From NCBI GenBank assembly GCA_903789525.1, contig CAIFER010000001.1, positions 248,001 to 312,000 of the forward strand: a stretch of DNA of 64,000 nucleotides. The letters are read 5' to 3'. The position numbers were made by a program, and so were the translations under genes. Under the pieces are notes generated by a model that saw only the letters and a program-made list of their open reading frames with translations, did not search any database and was not told the origin of the DNA. Each line of letters begins with the position of its first letter. Within the stretch, counting starts at the first letter, position 1. The DNA comes from an uncultured Aeriscardovia sp. Its GTDB lineage: Bacteria > Actinomycetota > Actinomycetes > Actinomycetales > Bifidobacteriaceae. Below are positions 3,769 through 53,313 of this stretch, in pieces.

Positions 3769-4272
3769 ATGGCTTTGGAAAATAATCAAGCCGTTGATAA
3801 CTCCGAAAACGATTCCGACGATTCTGAACTTCCAGCGCTTCTGCTCGGCACGTATACTCCCCGTCTTGATTCGAAGGGTCGTTTGGCTCTTCCTTCGAAA
3901 TTCCGTTCCCAGTTGGCGGGCGAATTCGTGATTGCTCGTGGTCAGGAACGGTGCCTTTACCTTTTGCCGTCTCGTGAATTCCGTCGTCTTGCCGTGAGTA
4001 TTCAACGAGCACATGTTTCCGATAAGCCGACGCGTGACTACTTGCGTGTGTTTCTCTCGGGTGCCAGTGAAGAAAAGATGGATCGGCAAGGTCGCATTGT
4101 GATTCCGCCGATGCTGCGTGAGTATGCCCATTTACAGCGTGATGTTGCGGTCATTGGCGTAGGAACGCGTGCTGAGGTATGGGATGCGCACGCGTGGAAT
4201 ACGTACTTGGCACAACAGGAAGATCCGTATTCGCAGATCAGCGATGACGTGTTACCGGAGGCTGATCTGTGA
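3769..4272 (+). CDS. mraZ: MraZ, transcriptional regulator of the dcw cluster
   Basis: MraZ is a ring-forming DNA-binding protein of the SpoVT/AbrB fold that controls cell division and wall genes. Both half-domains are visible: TYTPRLDSKGRLALPSKFR at about residues 28-46 and EEKMDRQGRIVIPPMLREY at about 101-119. At 167 residues it exceeds the usual 143-152 because of an acidic 25-residue N-terminal extension (rich in Asn, Asp, Ser, Glu). A strong AAGAGGAGG ribosome site precedes the ATG. Its stop codon overlaps the rsmH start (TGATG), so the two are translationally coupled. Confidence 0.96.
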   Translation: MALENNQAVDNSENDSDDSELPALLLGTYTPRLDSKGRLALPSKFRSQLAGEFVIARGQERCLYLLPSREFRRLAVSIQRAHVSDKPTRDYLRVFLSGASEEKMDRQGRIVIPPMLREYAHLQRDVAVIGVGTRAEVWDAHAWNTYLAQQEDPYSQISDDVLPEADL

Positions 4273-5777: not shown

Positions 5778-7727
5778 ATGACAGACATCAAGCATTTTCA
5801 GCACGATGACCGCGAGCATTCTCACGACTTTCTCACGGCTATTGCCACGGTTATTGAACAATTCGGTGTGTGGATTCGGGAACATTCCAATCCGATTAAT
5901 ATTTCTTTCGATGTGCACCGTTTGACGCGCCGAGAGCGTGAGACCATCGTTCGCCACCGCAATACGAGCTTTGTACGTCGAACAGGAGTGCTCCTCATCG
6001 TTGCACTCGTCGTTTGTGCATTATGTGTCGGGCAATTGGTTCGCATGCAATTGATCGACGGAGGCGACTACGCACAAGCTGCGACGAACGAGCGCTTGGT
6101 GACGCGGACATTCCCAGCCCGACGTGGTTCAATCGTGGATGCCAATGGTAAAGTGCTCGCGCAGTCAGTAGAGACGTACACTATTTTCGCCGATCAAAAA
6201 GCGGTTGCAGCATTCAAGCCGATTAAGTGCACGGTGTCCACTTCGCAGACGTGCCATGAAATTAATGGACGTCAGGTCACAGCAAAAGGTGCTGAGGGAA
6301 TCGCGGAGTTGCTGTCACCCGTACTGCGCATTGATACACAGACTTTGAAGAAAGAGCTGACAGGAACATCGCGTTATCGTATTTTGCGCAAGAACGTCAT
6401 TCCGAGTGTCAAGCGCAATATCGATAAACTCCATATTTCTGGTGAGATCGGCGCTCAGCTCACGTCACGGCGGTGCTATCCAGCGGGCGATGTCCTCGGA
6501 CCGGTTCTTGGAGCTGTCGATGCACATGGGACAGGTGTGGCCGGTGTCGAAAAAATGGCGAATGCGGCACTGACCGGTCGAGCAGGATCAGTGACGTATC
6601 AGCGCGGTGGTGACGGACAAGAGATTCCAGGCACTGCATCTACTGCGCGCGCGGCACGCAACGGCGGAACGGTGCACCTCACCATCGATTCGGATGTGCA
6701 GTGGTACGTCGAAAAGGCACTGCGCGACGGTCAGCAAAAGACGCATGCACAGTGGGGTATCGCTATTGTTCAAGATGTGAAAACAGGTCGTCTTCTGGCC
6801 GTAGCTGATACAGATCATGTGCACGGCGGTAGTGCGCAAGCGGCACTGCACCCGTCACGTGCGATGACAACGGTTTTCGAGCCAGGTTCGACCGGAAAGT
6901 TGATTACAGCAGCGAATCTGCTTGACAACAAGATTCACCAGCCAACTGATCAGTTCAGCGTTCCGTACCAGTTCCAGTACAACGGACAGACATATCACGA
7001 TTCTCATGAGCATGGTGTTGAGAATCTGACGCTCGCAGGCATTATTAAGGAGTCGTCCAACGTGGGTGTCGTGATGGCATCGGAAGGCTTATCCAATCAG
7101 AAGCGGTACGACTTCTTGCGTCGTATGGGGATTGGTCAGTATTCGGGCACCGGTTATCCGGGCGAATCACCGGGTATTCTCGCACCAGTCTCGCAATGGA
7201 ATGAGCGCCAGAGGCAGACAATCTTGTTCGGACAGGGCTATGCTGCTTCGGCTTTGCAGATGACGAATGTGGCTGCCACGATTGCAAATGGTGGTGTCCG
7301 TAAGCAGCAATCACTCATCGCGTCGTCCGTCAATTCTGAAGGGAAGAAGACGACTGCACCGTCCGCGTCACAACGCGTGATTTCACCCACCACTTCCCGT
7401 CAACTCTTAAACATGATGGAGTCGGTGACAGATATGTATCACAACTTCGTTAAGGTGCCCGGCTACCGTGTGGCAGGTAAGTCTGGTACCGCTCAGGTGT
7501 CGGATGGCACGAACAAGGCACTGAATCACACAATCGGTGATTGGATTGGCGTTCTCCCAGCAGATCAGCCGCGATTTGCAGTCATGGTCGCCTTCATGGA
7601 TCCTGACCCGATCTACGGTGGCATGTCAGCCGGCCCAGTCATGAGCCAGATCGGTGTGTTCTTGATGCAAAAGTACGCTGTACCGACGTCGAAACCTCGG
7701 ACAGACGCGATTCCGACACAGTGGTGA
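5778..7727 (+). CDS. ftsI: FtsI, septal peptidoglycan transpeptidase (class B PBP)
   Basis: FtsI cross-links septal peptidoglycan. A cytoplasmic N-terminus of about 60 residues leads to a membrane anchor at about 70-86, a dimerisation domain, and the transpeptidase domain. The three catalytic motifs are intact: S371-T-G-K374 (FEPGSTGKLITA), S426-S-N428 (KESSNVGVV) and K568-S-G-T571 (AGKSGTAQV). No PASTA domain is present, and the protein ends shortly after the transpeptidase fold. It starts 10 nt after ftsL behind a GAGGATGA ribosome site and runs in the same operon as ftsW, its partner glycosyltransferase. Confidence 0.96.
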   Translation: MTDIKHFQHDDREHSHDFLTAIATVIEQFGVWIREHSNPINISFDVHRLTRRERETIVRHRNTSFVRRTGVLLIVALVVCALCVGQLVRMQLIDGGDYAQAATNERLVTRTFPARRGSIVDANGKVLAQSVETYTIFADQKAVAAFKPIKCTVSTSQTCHEINGRQVTAKGAEGIAELLSPVLRIDTQTLKKELTGTSRYRILRKNVIPSVKRNIDKLHISGEIGAQLTSRRCYPAGDVLGPVLGAVDAHGTGVAGVEKMANAALTGRAGSVTYQRGGDGQEIPGTASTARAARNGGTVHLTIDSDVQWYVEKALRDGQQKTHAQWGIAIVQDVKTGRLLAVADTDHVHGGSAQAALHPSRAMTTVFEPGSTGKLITAANLLDNKIHQPTDQFSVPYQFQYNGQTYHDSHEHGVENLTLAGIIKESSNVGVVMASEGLSNQKRYDFLRRMGIGQYSGTGYPGESPGILAPVSQWNERQRQTILFGQGYAASALQMTNVAATIANGGVRKQQSLIASSVNSEGKKTTAPSASQRVISPTTSRQLLNMMESVTDMYHNFVKVPGYRVAGKSGTAQVSDGTNKALNHTIGDWIGVLPADQPRFAVMVAFMDPDPIYGGMSAGPVMSQIGVFLMQKYAVPTSKPRTDAIPTQW

Positions 7728-7752
7728 AAGACACAGAAAGCAGGAGGCGAAT

Positions 7753-8664
7753 ATGGCGTCAGATGATATGTCACCGCGCAGAATGACGATCGGCACGTTA
7801 GAGCGTCAATTTAATGCGCAGGCCTCTTCAGATGCGACTGCTGTAACGTTCACATCTGTCCCGACGCGCGTGGCAGAGGTTTCGCCGGGATCGCTGTTCA
7901 TTCCTGCAGGGAAAGAGGTCACCCTTCAGGCTGCTCAGCGTGCCGTGCTCGCCGGTGCCTACGCTGTAGGGCTGTCGACGGATGCCAAATCAGGGATTCC
8001 GGCTTCTGATGAAGATGGCGCGCACACAGTTGAGATTAACGATCACGTACTCGGTATTCCTGTCGTCTTCATTCCTTCGCTCGAGCAAAAAGTCGGCTCG
8101 ATTGCATCGGAAGTCGAAGGTGACCCCTCGCAGCAGACGGCTATTTTCGTCGCTTATGGGCCACAGTCACATGCGATTGCGCACCGATTGGCCCAGCTGC
8201 TACACATGCTGGGGAATCCAGTTGGTGTTCTTGTCGACCGCGGATCACAATCGGTGACCCGTCCGCTTGATCTGACATATCCGCTTGATGGCGCGCACGT
8301 TCAGCACGCATTGGCAATTATGGCTGAAGACGGAGCTTCTGCTGTCACCATCGCTGCCGATGATGCAACGCTTGATCCGTATGCTCTCGATGCGTGTGCA
8401 ATCGATGTTGTGTACGGCGAATCAGGTGCGATGGGATTGCACGGCGCACACTTCAGTTCGCAGACGCATCACGTTCCGGCGATCTCACAATCAGGCGATG
8501 CACACGAGCCGAATCACCATGCTCTGAGTGTGGGGTGGGACAAGATCGATACAGCTGGCAAAATCGCGATCGCTATGGCCACTGCTGCAGGAATCACATC
8601 CGACGCAATCCAGCAAGCTGCGCAAGTGTTTCACGAGTTTGACGGCGACAAAGGGACGAACTGA
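7753..8664 (+). CDS. MurE-like protein lacking the ATP-binding P-loop
   Basis: This 303-residue protein occupies the place where murE normally sits, between ftsI and murF. Its first part resembles a Mur-ligase N-terminal domain (TRVAEVSPGSLFIPAG, then AAQRAVLAGAYAVGL). The stretch that should be GTNGKTTT is instead VAYGPQSHAIAHRLAQLLHM, followed by a MurE-like LGNPVGVLVD, so the ATP site is gone. The C-terminal domain of true ligases is missing or replaced. A full-length MurE is encoded at 51,544-53,253. I infer a degenerate, non-catalytic paralogue, perhaps a scaffold or regulator in wall synthesis; its function is unknown. Confidence 0.7.
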   Translation: MASDDMSPRRMTIGTLERQFNAQASSDATAVTFTSVPTRVAEVSPGSLFIPAGKEVTLQAAQRAVLAGAYAVGLSTDAKSGIPASDEDGAHTVEINDHVLGIPVVFIPSLEQKVGSIASEVEGDPSQQTAIFVAYGPQSHAIAHRLAQLLHMLGNPVGVLVDRGSQSVTRPLDLTYPLDGAHVQHALAIMAEDGASAVTIAADDATLDPYALDACAIDVVYGESGAMGLHGAHFSSQTHHVPAISQSGDAHEPNHHALSVGWDKIDTAGKIAIAMATAAGITSDAIQQAAQVFHEFDGDKGTN

Positions 8665-8774
8665 TGAGGCACACACAATCCGCAGAATTTGCATGCGGAA
8701 GGCTTAAACTGAGATGGTTGCGTTCTCGAGTCGCTGTCGTGAAAGGCGTGAGGGGAGACGGTGAAGTGCAATGA
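8664..8774 (+). CDS. Possible 36-codon coupling ORF between the MurE-like gene and murF
   Basis: An ATG overlaps the stop of the MurE-like gene (TGATG) and opens a 36-residue frame, Arg-rich in its middle, whose TGA overlaps the murF ATG (ATGA). It exactly bridges the 106-nt gap. The peptide (starting MRHTQSAEF, ending GDGEVQ) matches nothing I recognise. Such a frame could carry ribosomes across the gap so that murF stays coupled. It may equally be chance. An internal 6-bp hairpin (TCCGCA/TGCGGA, about 8678-8698) lies inside it. Confidence 0.3.
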   Translation: MRHTQSAEFACGRLKLRWLRSRVAVVKGVRGDGEVQ

Positions 8775-10327
8775 TCACCACACGCATTGAAAAGGTCAAG
8801 GATGCTGTCGGTGGGACGTTTATCACTGGCCGGCAGGAAGTCGATATTTCGCATCTCTCGATTTCCTCAGTGAGCACTGATTCACGGCAGAAAACTCATA
8901 ATGGGCTCTTTGTCGCCATCAAGGGTGAGCGAGTCGACGGGCATGATTATTTGAATGCGGCTGCTCATAACGGATACGTCGCCGCACTCGTCGATCATGA
9001 AGTGCCGAATACGGATTTGTTGCAAATCGTGGTGGACGATACGGTTCGTGCATTAGGCAAATTGGCGCGTTATATCGTCGATCGCCGTCGTTCCGAGTTC
9101 TTCCACCCGTTCACGCTGATCGGTATCACCGGATCTGTTGGAAAGACGACCACGAAGGATATCACCCGTGCAATTCTCTCATCTGTTGCACCGACAGTGG
9201 CACCGGTCGGATCTTTCAATAACAATATTGGCTTGCCGCTCACGGCGCTCAAACTGACGAAGAAAACGCGCTATTTTGTGGCTGAGATGGGTGCGAGCCA
9301 AATCGGAGATATTCGTTACCTCGTTAGCATAGCGCCACCAGACGTGGGTACTGAGCTTCGCGTTGGAACGGCGCACGTCGGCATGTTCGGCTCTGTCGAA
9401 AACATTTTTAAGGCAAAGTCAGAGCTGGTTGAGGCACTGCCACCGTCTCGCAAAGGTGGAATCGCGCTCCTCAATTCAGATGACCCGAATGTCAGTCGTA
9501 TGGCGCAGGAGACACAGGCGAGCGTACGCTGGTTTGGTCTTGAACCGCATCCCGGTCGTCACCTCATGGTCACCGCGCAGCACATCACAACGGATCGGCT
9601 TGACCGCCCGAGTTTTGACCTCATTGTTGAGGGCGAGAACGTTGGACACGTCCACCTGCATATTTGCGGACGTCATCATGTCATCAACGCTGTTGCGGCG
9701 GCGAGTATCGCCCATGTGCTCCGTGTTGACTCGGATCGCATTGTGGAAGTGCTGAACTCTCACATGTCTCTTTCACCGCATCGTATGGCTGTGCGTGATA
9801 TCGCCGTCAGTGGCGTTCATCTGACGCTCTTGGATGATACGTTCAACGCCAATCCAGATTCGATGCGTGGGGGAATTCAGGGTTTGCGTGGTCTGAGTGG
9901 GCCAGAAGATCCTGAACATCTGACGGTAGCAAAGGATTCGCCAGAAGCTCAGCCGTATCGAGTTGCCGTGCTCGGGCCGATGTTGGAACTGGGTGACGAA
10001 TCTGTCAAACTGCATCGTCAGGTTGGTTCGCTCGTCGTCCAAAACGGCATTGATGCGCTGGTGGCCGTTGGTACGCCGTCATTGCCTCAGGCTGATCATC
10101 TCGCTGACGAATACATTACTGGTGCTCAGAATTCGGCATACCGATATAGTTCTGAGCGTCGTGGACCGTTGAACGTGCGGCGCGTGGCCAACACGGATGA
10201 AGCGTGGGCGCAGATTATGCACCTGGCCAGTAGGCATCCCAATACGATCGTCCTGCTCAAAGGCTCCCACGCATCAGGTTTGAGCACATTAGCCGATAGT
10301 CTTCTTTCACACGCACAAGGAGAGTGA
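8771..10327 (+). CDS. murF: MurF, UDP-MurNAc-tripeptide D-Ala-D-Ala ligase
   Basis: MurF adds the D-Ala-D-Ala dipeptide to the UDP-MurNAc tripeptide in the cytoplasm. The N-terminal substrate domain shows SSVSTDSRQ and GLFVAIKGERVDGHDYL. The P-loop is GITGSVGKTTTKD (about residues 118-130), followed by SFNNNIGLPLT and FVAEMGASQIGDI, both typical of MurF. The C-terminal domain has DDTFNANPDSMRGGI and RVAVLGPMLELGDES. Its 518 residues are a little longer than usual. It is followed by mraY after 1 nt, consistent with one operon. Confidence 0.96.
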   Translation: MITTRIEKVKDAVGGTFITGRQEVDISHLSISSVSTDSRQKTHNGLFVAIKGERVDGHDYLNAAAHNGYVAALVDHEVPNTDLLQIVVDDTVRALGKLARYIVDRRRSEFFHPFTLIGITGSVGKTTTKDITRAILSSVAPTVAPVGSFNNNIGLPLTALKLTKKTRYFVAEMGASQIGDIRYLVSIAPPDVGTELRVGTAHVGMFGSVENIFKAKSELVEALPPSRKGGIALLNSDDPNVSRMAQETQASVRWFGLEPHPGRHLMVTAQHITTDRLDRPSFDLIVEGENVGHVHLHICGRHHVINAVAAASIAHVLRVDSDRIVEVLNSHMSLSPHRMAVRDIAVSGVHLTLLDDTFNANPDSMRGGIQGLRGLSGPEDPEHLTVAKDSPEAQPYRVAVLGPMLELGDESVKLHRQVGSLVVQNGIDALVAVGTPSLPQADHLADEYITGAQNSAYRYSSERRGPLNVRRVANTDEAWAQIMHLASRHPNTIVLLKGSHASGLSTLADSLLSHAQGE

Positions 10328-51543: not shown

Positions 51544-53253
51544 TCAGTATTTCAGAGCGAGCGCAGGATTCGGTTTGCCTTCGCTGATCGCCTTGACGAC
51601 AGTAATATCAGACGGCCATGGCACAGCGCGACCACGAATCTCGAGCCACTTTTCGTCACCCTTTCCGATGACGAGAATGACTTGCTGATGGTTGCCATTT
51701 GGTGATTTCAGCGCATGACGGGCCAAGTCGTATGCCATTTGGATCGCTTCTCCGCGTCTGTTCTCTACGCGGACGTCGAGAACACCAAGGGACGGGTCGC
51801 GCTCTGGGTTCGTGTCGTGCGACGCGAGTTTGCGAGCAGGATCTGCTATTTGTGCAGCAATATGGTGAGGATCCTCAAAGTACGAATCATCTTGCGTCAC
51901 GATGAATCGGTTGGCCAAATGTGCTGCAGCTCGTGCCATGCCTTCACGGCGATCGAAAGCTTTTCCACCCGAGGAGCCAGTGATGACAGTGCAATAGCAG
52001 TGCGGGTAGCGGCGGCGAATGAAGCGCAAGAGTACAGTCAGGCTCGCATAGTTGTGCGCATAGTCCACGTAGCTGATGATGCCATCAGTTGACACGAATT
52101 CCTGCATGCGCCCAGGGACCGTTACGTGTGACACAGCCGCGAGGGAATCATGATCACTCGGATCAACGCCCGCCGTAACTGAGAGTGCAACAGCAGCAAG
52201 CGCATTCTCGAAGTTAAAATCGCCCTGAATAGACAAATCGAACGTACCAAGTGTCGTTGCAGGAGTAGAGTTCACATCCGCAGCAGTGGCGTGTCCGTCA
52301 GTGCGCAGACGCGGGCGATCAGTAAACGTGCTGACACGCTTGCCGTTGACTGTCTGTGGGGCGGAGCCCATAAAAGTCGCTGGGATATGTGGGTCCATGG
52401 AGAATGTTGCGGTCGGTTTTTCGAGCAGTGCAGCGTTCTCTGTGATGAGCCGTGATTTGTCGCCGAGTGTGGCGTTGTACACAAACAGGCGGCTTGCGGC
52501 AATCATTTTGCGCTTGCAGAAGAAGTAATCCTCAAACGTCGGGTGTTCGATAGGAGAGATGTGGTCTGGCGAAATATTGAGGAATGCGCCGACATCGAAC
52601 GTGAGCCCAAAGACGCGACCGATCTTGAACGCTTGACTGCTGACTTCGAGAACGAGGTCTCTCATGCCGTTATTCACTGCTTCGCGCATCATGCGCATCA
52701 TATCAATGGACTCTGGTGTGGTCAGGATTGACGGTGTCCACGTGTGGCCATCGAGGCAGTCAGCTTCGGAGCACATGAGTGCACAACGATTTCCAGTTGC
52801 ATGGGCAAGGATCGCGTGCGTCATGTATGCCGTCGTCGTCTTACCTTTTGTGCCGGTGATAGCGATAATCTTGAGATCGCGCTCTGGATGCCCATAGAAT
52901 TCCTGAGCGATGAGTGCCATCGCGTGGTAAACGTTAGAAACAATGAATCCAGGAATTGCAGTCGGTGTCGCGATTTCACTTTCACTCACGTAGCCGGTGA
53001 CGCCTTGAGCGATAGCTGGTGGAAGATATTCAGGTTTGAAGTTGCCCTTGCAGAACAGAAGAGTGTGAGGTTGCACGGTGCGTGAATCGTAACTGAGGAG
53101 GGAGTACGTCACACCTTTCAGGCATGCATTTTCCGGGTCAAGAGTCCACTCTTTTCCATTGATGACTTCACGCAAAAGATGATGCGAACTCAAAAGTGCG
53201 AAAACGGTCCGGCCGGTAATTCGACCGCCCACATGCGTGGTTGCTGTTGACAT
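51544..53253 (-). CDS. murE: MurE, UDP-MurNAc-L-Ala-D-Glu:diamino-acid ligase (not DAP type)
   Basis: MurE adds the third residue of the peptidoglycan stem. This 569-residue copy has the P-loop IAITGTKGKTTTAYM, LEVSSQAFKIGRVFGLTFDVG, NISPDHISPIEHPTFEDYF and YVDYAHNYASL. The specificity segment reads TQDDSYFEDP rather than the DNPR of meso-DAP enzymes, and the middle resembles L-Lys-adding enzymes of streptococci, fitting Lys/Orn-type walls of bifidobacteria. ATG 53253 follows GGAG at 8 nt; longer starts up to 53286 are possible. It lies outside the dcw cluster, which instead has the P-loop-less paralogue at 7,753. Confidence 0.93.
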   Translation of the reverse strand: MSTATTHVGGRITGRTVFALLSSHHLLREVINGKEWTLDPENACLKGVTYSLLSYDSRTVQPHTLLFCKGNFKPEYLPPAIAQGVTGYVSESEIATPTAIPGFIVSNVYHAMALIAQEFYGHPERDLKIIAITGTKGKTTTAYMTHAILAHATGNRCALMCSEADCLDGHTWTPSILTTPESIDMMRMMREAVNNGMRDLVLEVSSQAFKIGRVFGLTFDVGAFLNISPDHISPIEHPTFEDYFFCKRKMIAASRLFVYNATLGDKSRLITENAALLEKPTATFSMDPHIPATFMGSAPQTVNGKRVSTFTDRPRLRTDGHATAADVNSTPATTLGTFDLSIQGDFNFENALAAVALSVTAGVDPSDHDSLAAVSHVTVPGRMQEFVSTDGIISYVDYAHNYASLTVLLRFIRRRYPHCYCTVITGSSGGKAFDRREGMARAAAHLANRFIVTQDDSYFEDPHHIAAQIADPARKLASHDTNPERDPSLGVLDVRVENRRGEAIQMAYDLARHALKSPNGNHQQVILVIGKGDEKWLEIRGRAVPWPSDITVVKAISEGKPNPALALKY

Positions 53254-53313
53254 TTCGTGCATCTCCATTCGATTTCTCTTCACCACTGATCGTAAAGCGA
53301 CTTTGTGTGATTT

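Follow-up and report, generated by a model that had tools for sequence, protein, structure and literature searches.

The gene at positions 7753–8664 (forward strand) of the window, by which we mean the whole stretch of 64,000 nucleotides analysed, encodes a MurE pseudoenzyme that is under constraint and is restricted to the Bifidobacteriaceae in the genomes sampled. The gene, here called X, has an ATG start and specifies 303 aa, with its exact open reading frame limits confirmed. According to the ORF, profile, AlphaFold2 and alignment analyses, X is a MurE-derived pseudo-ligase which has two MurE domains and lacks both the P-loop and domain 3, and annotation of the gene as MurE or as a Mur ligase is wrong. 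The original prediction of a MurE-like, P-loop-less protein in the murE slot of the dcw cluster was thus upheld by the reading frame, the ftsI-X-murF gene order, the profile and structure matches and the P-loop pattern counts given below. In Bifidobacterium and Gardnerella, X marks a wall protein confined to the family, of which no description was found in open-licence PMC full texts. A paper on Bifidobacteriales signatures (PMC4921777) does not mention Mur, peptidoglycan or cell wall, and in the part available of a study of essential genes in B. breve UCC2003 (PMC5514069) the X gene is unnamed and the main text contains no 'mur'.

The window comes from a 1.44-Mb genome of the Bifidobacteriaceae, and its dcw cluster runs on the forward strand from position 3769 in the order mraZ, rsmH, ftsL, ftsI, X, murF, mraY, murD, ftsW, murG, murC and ftsQ, with the names ftsI, murF and murD checked against Pfam and the other gene names being a reading of the sequences. 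Upstream, X adjoins ftsI (5778–7727, forward strand; a penicillin-binding protein and transpeptidase by Pfam), with a gap of 25 bp from the ftsI stopcodon, and downstream it is separated by 106 bp from murF (8771–10327, forward strand; Pfam and NCBIfam). A strong ribosome-binding site, AGGAGG within GCAGGAGGCG, could be read directly in the sequence a few bases 5′ of the X start (7739–7746, forward strand, approximate ends). Promoter or terminator signals near X were not found above shuffle expectation, the GC content and GC3 of X are those of the neighbouring genes, and a phage origin was rejected, as there was no match to PHROGs. Within the 80 named X loci, murF was located directly downstream in all 80 and ftsI upstream in 74 (gap 17–760 bp, median 42 bp), so that the ftsI-X-murF arrangement is present in 74/80.

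Used as a single sequence, X from the window matched no Pfam family at E≤1 and did not match TIGR01085 at E≤1, gave weak MurE matches in NCBIfam and PDB (E. coli MurE, E=0.02), and retrieved nothing as a query for related loci, which were found with a profile query. The Pfam Mur ligase domains PF01225, PF08245 and PF02875 do not match X at gathering score, nor did they match any of 26 X relatives at E≤0.1. TIGR01085 was matched by 18 of these 26 relatives at E≤0.01 (best 3.3e-12), with X falling below the curated cut-off of 257.3 bits for MurE ligase membership, and a profile built from the 26 family members detected the MurE proteins of M. tuberculosis (1.4e-11) and E. coli (7.9e-8). The structure prediction suggested as a check on the original prediction returned a Mur-ligase fold: the AlphaFold2 model of X (64-sequence alignment) had a mean pLDDT of 89.7 and a pTM of 0.89, and MurE ranked first in structure comparisons, with a Z of 25.1 over 279 residues for M. 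tuberculosis MurE (2xja/2wtz) and 23.0 for S. aureus MurE (4c12). MurF reached a Z of about 16, and a relationship of X to MurF was rejected because MurE outranks it; MurT was likewise rejected as a relative, since X gave no match to its model NF045635 at E≤1. A relative of X from the most reduced genomes was predicted to have the same fold (pLDDT 84.7), with PAP11 and M. tuberculosis MurE as best matches. The X model aligns to residues 28–384 of M. tuberculosis MurE and to residues 1–342 of S. aureus MurE, and since domain 3 of the latter comprises residues 333–493 (available text of PMC3829189), X represents domains 1 and 2 of MurE, ending at the end of domain 2 without the C-terminal ligase domain. 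The N-terminal MurE domain has survived as originally noted, with the addition that the central domain has also survived as a fold and that only domain 3 is absent.

The region corresponding to GTNGKTTT of MurE reads AYGPQSHAIAHR in X of the window, and alignment with MurE sets Y-G-P-Q-S-(gap)-H-A against the columns T-G-T-N-G-K-T-T. The segment in place of the P-loop and the start of the next helix, VAYGPQSHAIAHRL, covers about residues 133–146 (8149–8190, forward strand; alignment with 98 MurEs), which agrees with the earlier reading that this segment was replaced and that the usual ATP site would be lost with it. The pattern G..GK[TS] was present in 0/81 X proteins and in 110/110 comparison MurEs, the latter being rows that were chosen for the trees by that pattern, and the P-loop form GT[NKD]GK[TS] used to recognise MurE is likewise absent from X. 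Comparison of the 81 X proteins with 98 MurEs showed that neither the P-loop nor T-T-P, E-V-S-S-H, the R after it or DHLD is retained in X, and that the lysine which MurE carries in carbamylated form, the hinge P-G-R and domain 3 are also gone. The column of this lysine, which belongs to the central domain, contains K in 100% of sequences in the three MurE groups and a gap in 94% of the X proteins; the role of the lysine is described in PMC3829189 as far as that text is available. With every catalytic element checked being lost, the alignments strongly indicate that X is catalytically dead, as had been claimed.

Erosion alone is excluded as an explanation, since X has invariant residues of its own and has thus gained its own constraint. 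There are 36 positions with at least 95% conservation within X, and 18 of these lie in residues 146–220 (8188–8412, forward strand), the most constrained stretch by conservation count, so that half of the invariant residues fall in one quarter of the protein. Conserved positions unlike the usual MurE residues are Y70, H151, N155, P156, V157, R170 and T206, and the new invariant residues in the UDP-MurNAc pocket region of the sequence (H151, N155, P156, S165, R170 and T206) could bind something other than UDP-MurNAc peptides. X is usually about 290–300 aa long, and reaches 338–403 aa in some Gardnerella and related genomes (L098, L100, L104, L105 and L109); in one Gardnerella-type X (L017) the extra length consists of an insert of charged, low-complexity sequence that follows the central domain.

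X was detected in 139 of 151 Bifidobacteriaceae genomes, including all 130 well-assembled ones (≥90% completeness, ≤5% contamination), and the 12 genomes without it were 11 genomes of five genera (57–89% complete) and G040 (76%). Outside the family, 123/183 other genomes of the order matched the X profile, none with more than 92.7 bits, versus 238–401 bits for family members, and the 15 non-family matches from the order that were fetched were all full-length MurEs with GTNGKT. The X reading frame was intact with an ATG start in 80/80 named loci, which together with a dN/dS near 0.1 led us to reject a decaying pseudogene or chance ORF. Across the family, selection was found not to be relaxed: in 23 independent close pairs the median dN/dS of X was 0.107, compared with 0.124 for murF, 0.103 for murD, 0.084 for ftsI, 0.078 for rsmH and 0.030 for mraY, which supports retention of X under strong purifying selection. 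With a Mur-ligase fold predicted and selection not relaxed, neither of the two outcomes named as refuting the original prediction was observed. In a wider set of 1219 non-independent pairs with saturated synonymous sites, X had the highest omega of the six genes (0.452), and taken with the low dN/dS in close pairs this makes X fast-changing yet constrained. Since the ATP site and catalysis appear to be lost while purifying selection is retained, a non-catalytic role of X is strongly indicated.

The complete murE originally reported at 51,544 is real, and is located outside the dcw cluster on the reverse strand (51544–53286). It encodes a working MurE of 580 aa with GTKGKT and the Mur_ligase_M and Mur_ligase_C domains, and belongs to a different MurE lineage according to Pfam, NCBIfam and trees. 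The standard model TIGR01085 misses the working bifidobacterial MurE, because its score of 234 bits is below the cut-off of 257.3. The order ftsI-murE-murF with a full-length GTNGKT MurE was found in 30/35 distinct MurE loci of the order, and phylum-wide in 25/30 MurE loci, some of the misses being explained by short flanks or the end of a contig. The 34 working Bifidobacteriaceae MurEs (GTKGKT) had neither ftsI nor murF within their 1.5-kb flanks. As 15 of the order MurEs had been fetched via the X profile, which biases the comparison, and 20 via the working-MurE query, the comparison bearing on origin was run again with the 20 rows from this opposite query, and the X profile gave a median of 46.8 bits to these versus 15.9 bits to the bifidobacterial MurEs (34 rows). 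In trees, the working MurEs formed one clade (support 100), which was placed with phylum-wide MurEs, a MurE from genome group g6 and the MurEs from groups g3, g4 and g9, and the branch parting this assemblage from the order MurEs also had a support of 100. X formed one clade at 100, which grouped with the order MurEs at 98 in a 66-row tree and weakly, at 75, in a 124-row tree, with the X branch being long (2.5–2.7 changes per column). All trees were made with a quick method with SH-aLRT support only, and the smaller trees are row subsets (66 of 124, 76 of 136). L217 (without P-loop pattern) and the duplicate loci L180 and L193 were left out, as was the long-branched ordE_L182 from the 66- and 76-row trees and ordE_L185 from the 76-row tree.

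X had originally been called a paralogue, and descent of X from a degenerated duplicate of the working bifidobacterial MurE would be compatible with the AU test, which did not reject a single clade of X and the working MurEs (p 0.31), the long branches blurring the tree. We nevertheless consider such a duplication improbable, as the X profile scores the order MurEs far higher, X and the order MurEs lie on one side of the branch supported at 98, and X occupies the ancestral murE slot. X is thus probably the retired original dcw MurE, and the evidence favours the MurE at 51,544 being a replacement from another MurE lineage. If true, this provides a clean natural case in which an enzyme of an essential pathway was replaced and its body kept as a pseudoenzyme across a bacterial family. 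Some variation was seen among the MurEs: the working MurE is present in two neighbouring copies in the Bifidobacterium genomes G007, G062, G078, G106, G110, G119, G121, G135, G138, G142 and G144, and G034 contains X and lacks the usual bifidobacterial MurE, having a different MurE with GTKGKT (L227; 441 bits to TIGR01085) that branches beside the usual bifidobacterial type. L217, from another actinobacterial family, is a 506-aa full-length MurE ORF whose sequence did not show the usual P-loop pattern.

Two kinds of reduced genome serve as natural experiments. Genomes of the genera g3, g4 and g9, which judging by their size and gene content are putatively the termite-flagellate endosymbionts described in PMC11707648 (from the part of that text available), have ftsI followed directly by murF in the five loci where both genes are on one contig, and two further g3 murF loci also showed no X. 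Their MurE (GTDGKT) is located elsewhere, not in the ftsI-murF slot. These genomes retain ftsI, murF and mraY but have no X, so the job of X is dispensable in some settings. The dcw clusters L250, L251 and L252 of groups g4 and g9 also lack murD between mraY and ftsW, and have the P-loop variant GTDGKT in MurE. Genome reduction of this kind can remove X, which is kept in group g12, a clade of 0.6–0.9-Mb genomes from ruminant samples (G012, G025, G037, G046, G051, G055 and G059), four of which are 99–100% complete. All six named g12 loci (L038, L039, L040, L043, L046 and L047) have lost ftsL and ftsI from the dcw cluster and show a direct rsmH-X-murF order, which in L039 forms part of an operon rsmH-X-murF-mraY-murD-murG, where the ORFs of X and murF share 20 bases. 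Purifying selection also acts on X in g12 (omega 0.07–0.14, three pairs). Six of the seven genomes have one FtsW/RodA protein and two transpeptidases, and the seventh (G059, 87% complete) has no FtsW/RodA and one transpeptidase; the window genome has two and four, respectively. The remaining FtsW/RodA of G012 adjoins a transpeptidase near a PASTA protein, as does the second such pair of the window genome, and because of these neighbours it is probably RodA-PbpA. X is therefore separable from FtsI, FtsL and FtsW, as the g12 genomes keep X without them. These reduced genomes may divide without FtsI and FtsW.

Branch-specific evolutionary rates were compared on fixed species trees after dereplication at 96% identity, with 7/57 loci dropped because their mapping to genomes was ambiguous. 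The only gene that steadily covaried in rate with X was ftsI, with rho values of 0.39, 0.42, 0.49, 0.42 and 0.35 in five overlapping runs (56, 35, 61, 61 and 37 taxa; uncorrected p 1e-4, 0.001, 2e-7, 1e-5 and 0.007). This covariation was similar on tips and inner branches and stayed at 0.41–0.48 after removal of each of 23 clades, and similar behaviour was seen for the known partners ftsI-ftsL (0.41 and 0.31) and ftsI-ftsW (0.34 and 0.38, and 0.18 when ftsW fragments were included). The X-ftsI signal is indirect evidence and is partly confounded by adjacency, but the equally adjacent murF shows no steady signal with X (0.14, 0.30 with p 0.02, -0.03, -0.04 and 0.07). The values for X-ftsL were 0.28 (p 0.004) and 0.13, and ftsI-rsmH reached 0.45 in one run. 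The rate of X did not covary with that of the working MurE (-0.14) or rsmH, and most Mur ligases and murG covary among themselves. Coupling of X to MurG was rejected on the basis of its rate covariation of -0.06, and a link with the presence of PASTA-kinase or DivIVA was rejected since both are widespread with and without X. The rate pattern favours a placement of X with FtsI over one with the soluble ligases. FtsI would, however, not be its sole partner, because the six g12 loci without ftsI keep X, and the fairest reading of the ftsI covariation and the FtsI-less genomes together is that of an adaptor docking on two or more partners.

We therefore tentatively propose, as a reading with a nearly even chance of being correct, that X is a non-catalytic cytoplasmic adaptor in wall synthesis, made from the retired dcw MurE and acting with putative partners. 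X would be the former dcw-encoded MurE of the Bifidobacteriaceae, with a MurE of another lineage having taken over the ligase reaction; the old MurE would then have lost the P-loop, the catalytic-lysine segment and the whole C-terminal domain, and its two-domain body may have survived through a second, non-catalytic job. As a MurE-shaped place-holder, X could dock on membrane-side partners such as FtsI and/or MraY, MurG or a RodA-type SEDS/PBP pair, and it is this protein-protein role that we infer as part of the adaptor proposal. The more specific version, in which the displaced Mur ligase became a dedicated, non-catalytic adaptor that links precursor synthesis in the cytoplasm with FtsI, or whatever replaces it, at the membrane and is kept by most Bifidobacteriaceae, is possible but held with less confidence; it would make X a wall-synthesis component of a new kind, derived from a retired enzyme. 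X would also set the catalytic role of a Mur ligase apart from its structural role, the question that underlies the proposed 'Mur complex'. Should X bind FtsI, MraY or MurG without chemistry, a scaffold role could be tested directly in bacteria growing without X-type ligase activity.

Other roles are less probable. X might act as the partner of a cytoplasmic Mur ligase and regulate or stabilise it, as pseudo-subunit of the working MurE or together with MurF, in line with the near-equal presence of X (139) and the working MurE (138) in the 151 genomes, 11 of which lack both, with the constant position of X before murF and their overlap in reduced genomes, and with the MurE-MurF fusion of B. pertussis (available text of PMC6420597). 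We regard this as unlikely, because the rate of X follows that of murF in a single run and that of the working MurE not at all while the Mur ligases covary mutually, because G034 and G044 carry X without a MurE of the usual bifidobacterial type, and because the co-occurrence rests on very few evolutionary events. Binding of UDP-MurNAc peptides, which the original prediction had offered as an example of a function, is weak at best: the two retained domains are those that carry the UDP-MurNAc-peptide pocket of MurE (PMC3829189, in the portion available), and the X-specific invariant polar residues H151, N155, S165, R170 and T206 lie in the pocket region of the sequence, but X has lost the residues that the sampled MurEs conserve in this region (T-T-P, E-V-S-S-H and R). 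A ligand sensor that would use the old cleft to bind such peptides, or a different precursor linked to a nucleotide, and to signal precursor supply is thus doubtful, and slightly less probable than a ligase partner. The position of X inside the operon, and its overlap with murF in L039, would also suit a mere spacer that keeps transcription or translational coupling to murF, but this is very improbable, as a spacer is not expected to have a dN/dS of 0.107 at the amino-acid level, invariant residues and a confident fold, and in the five loci of groups g3, g4 and g9 ftsI is joined to murF with no such spacer between them.

An adaptor role for X can be set against known systems. X resembles actinobacterial MurE in its gene slot after ftsI and before murF, and M. 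tuberculosis MurE in the fold of domains 1 and 2, and differs from the latter in lacking the P-loop, the carbamylated-lysine segment and domain 3, with 18% identity. M. tuberculosis Mur synthetases were reported to bind FtsZ, FtsW, FtsQ, Wag31 and SepF and, in the part of that report available, not each other (PMC3605390), and T. maritima MurD, MurE and MurF to bind MurG and MreB (available text of PMC6420597). According to the same text the B. pertussis MurE-MurF fusion (8f5d), which like X places a MurE body next to MurF, binds MurG; both halves of the fusion are active, whereas X is separate, truncated and predicted to be inactive. MurT, which acts with GatD in lipid II amidation according to the partial descriptions available, is like X a Mur-ligase-derived protein with a changed role, but it is a Mur-ligase-like enzyme, which X is not. 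The best PDB sequence-profile match of X was PAP11 of the plastid RNA polymerase (8r6s chain Q; 3e-14, Z 23.7), a 768-residue plant chain from a different pathway that aligned over residues 230–584. PAP11 is a MurE relative and a component of the plastid RNA polymerase in plants (PMC9456514, in the part available), and the use of a MurE body as a structural part thus has a parallel.
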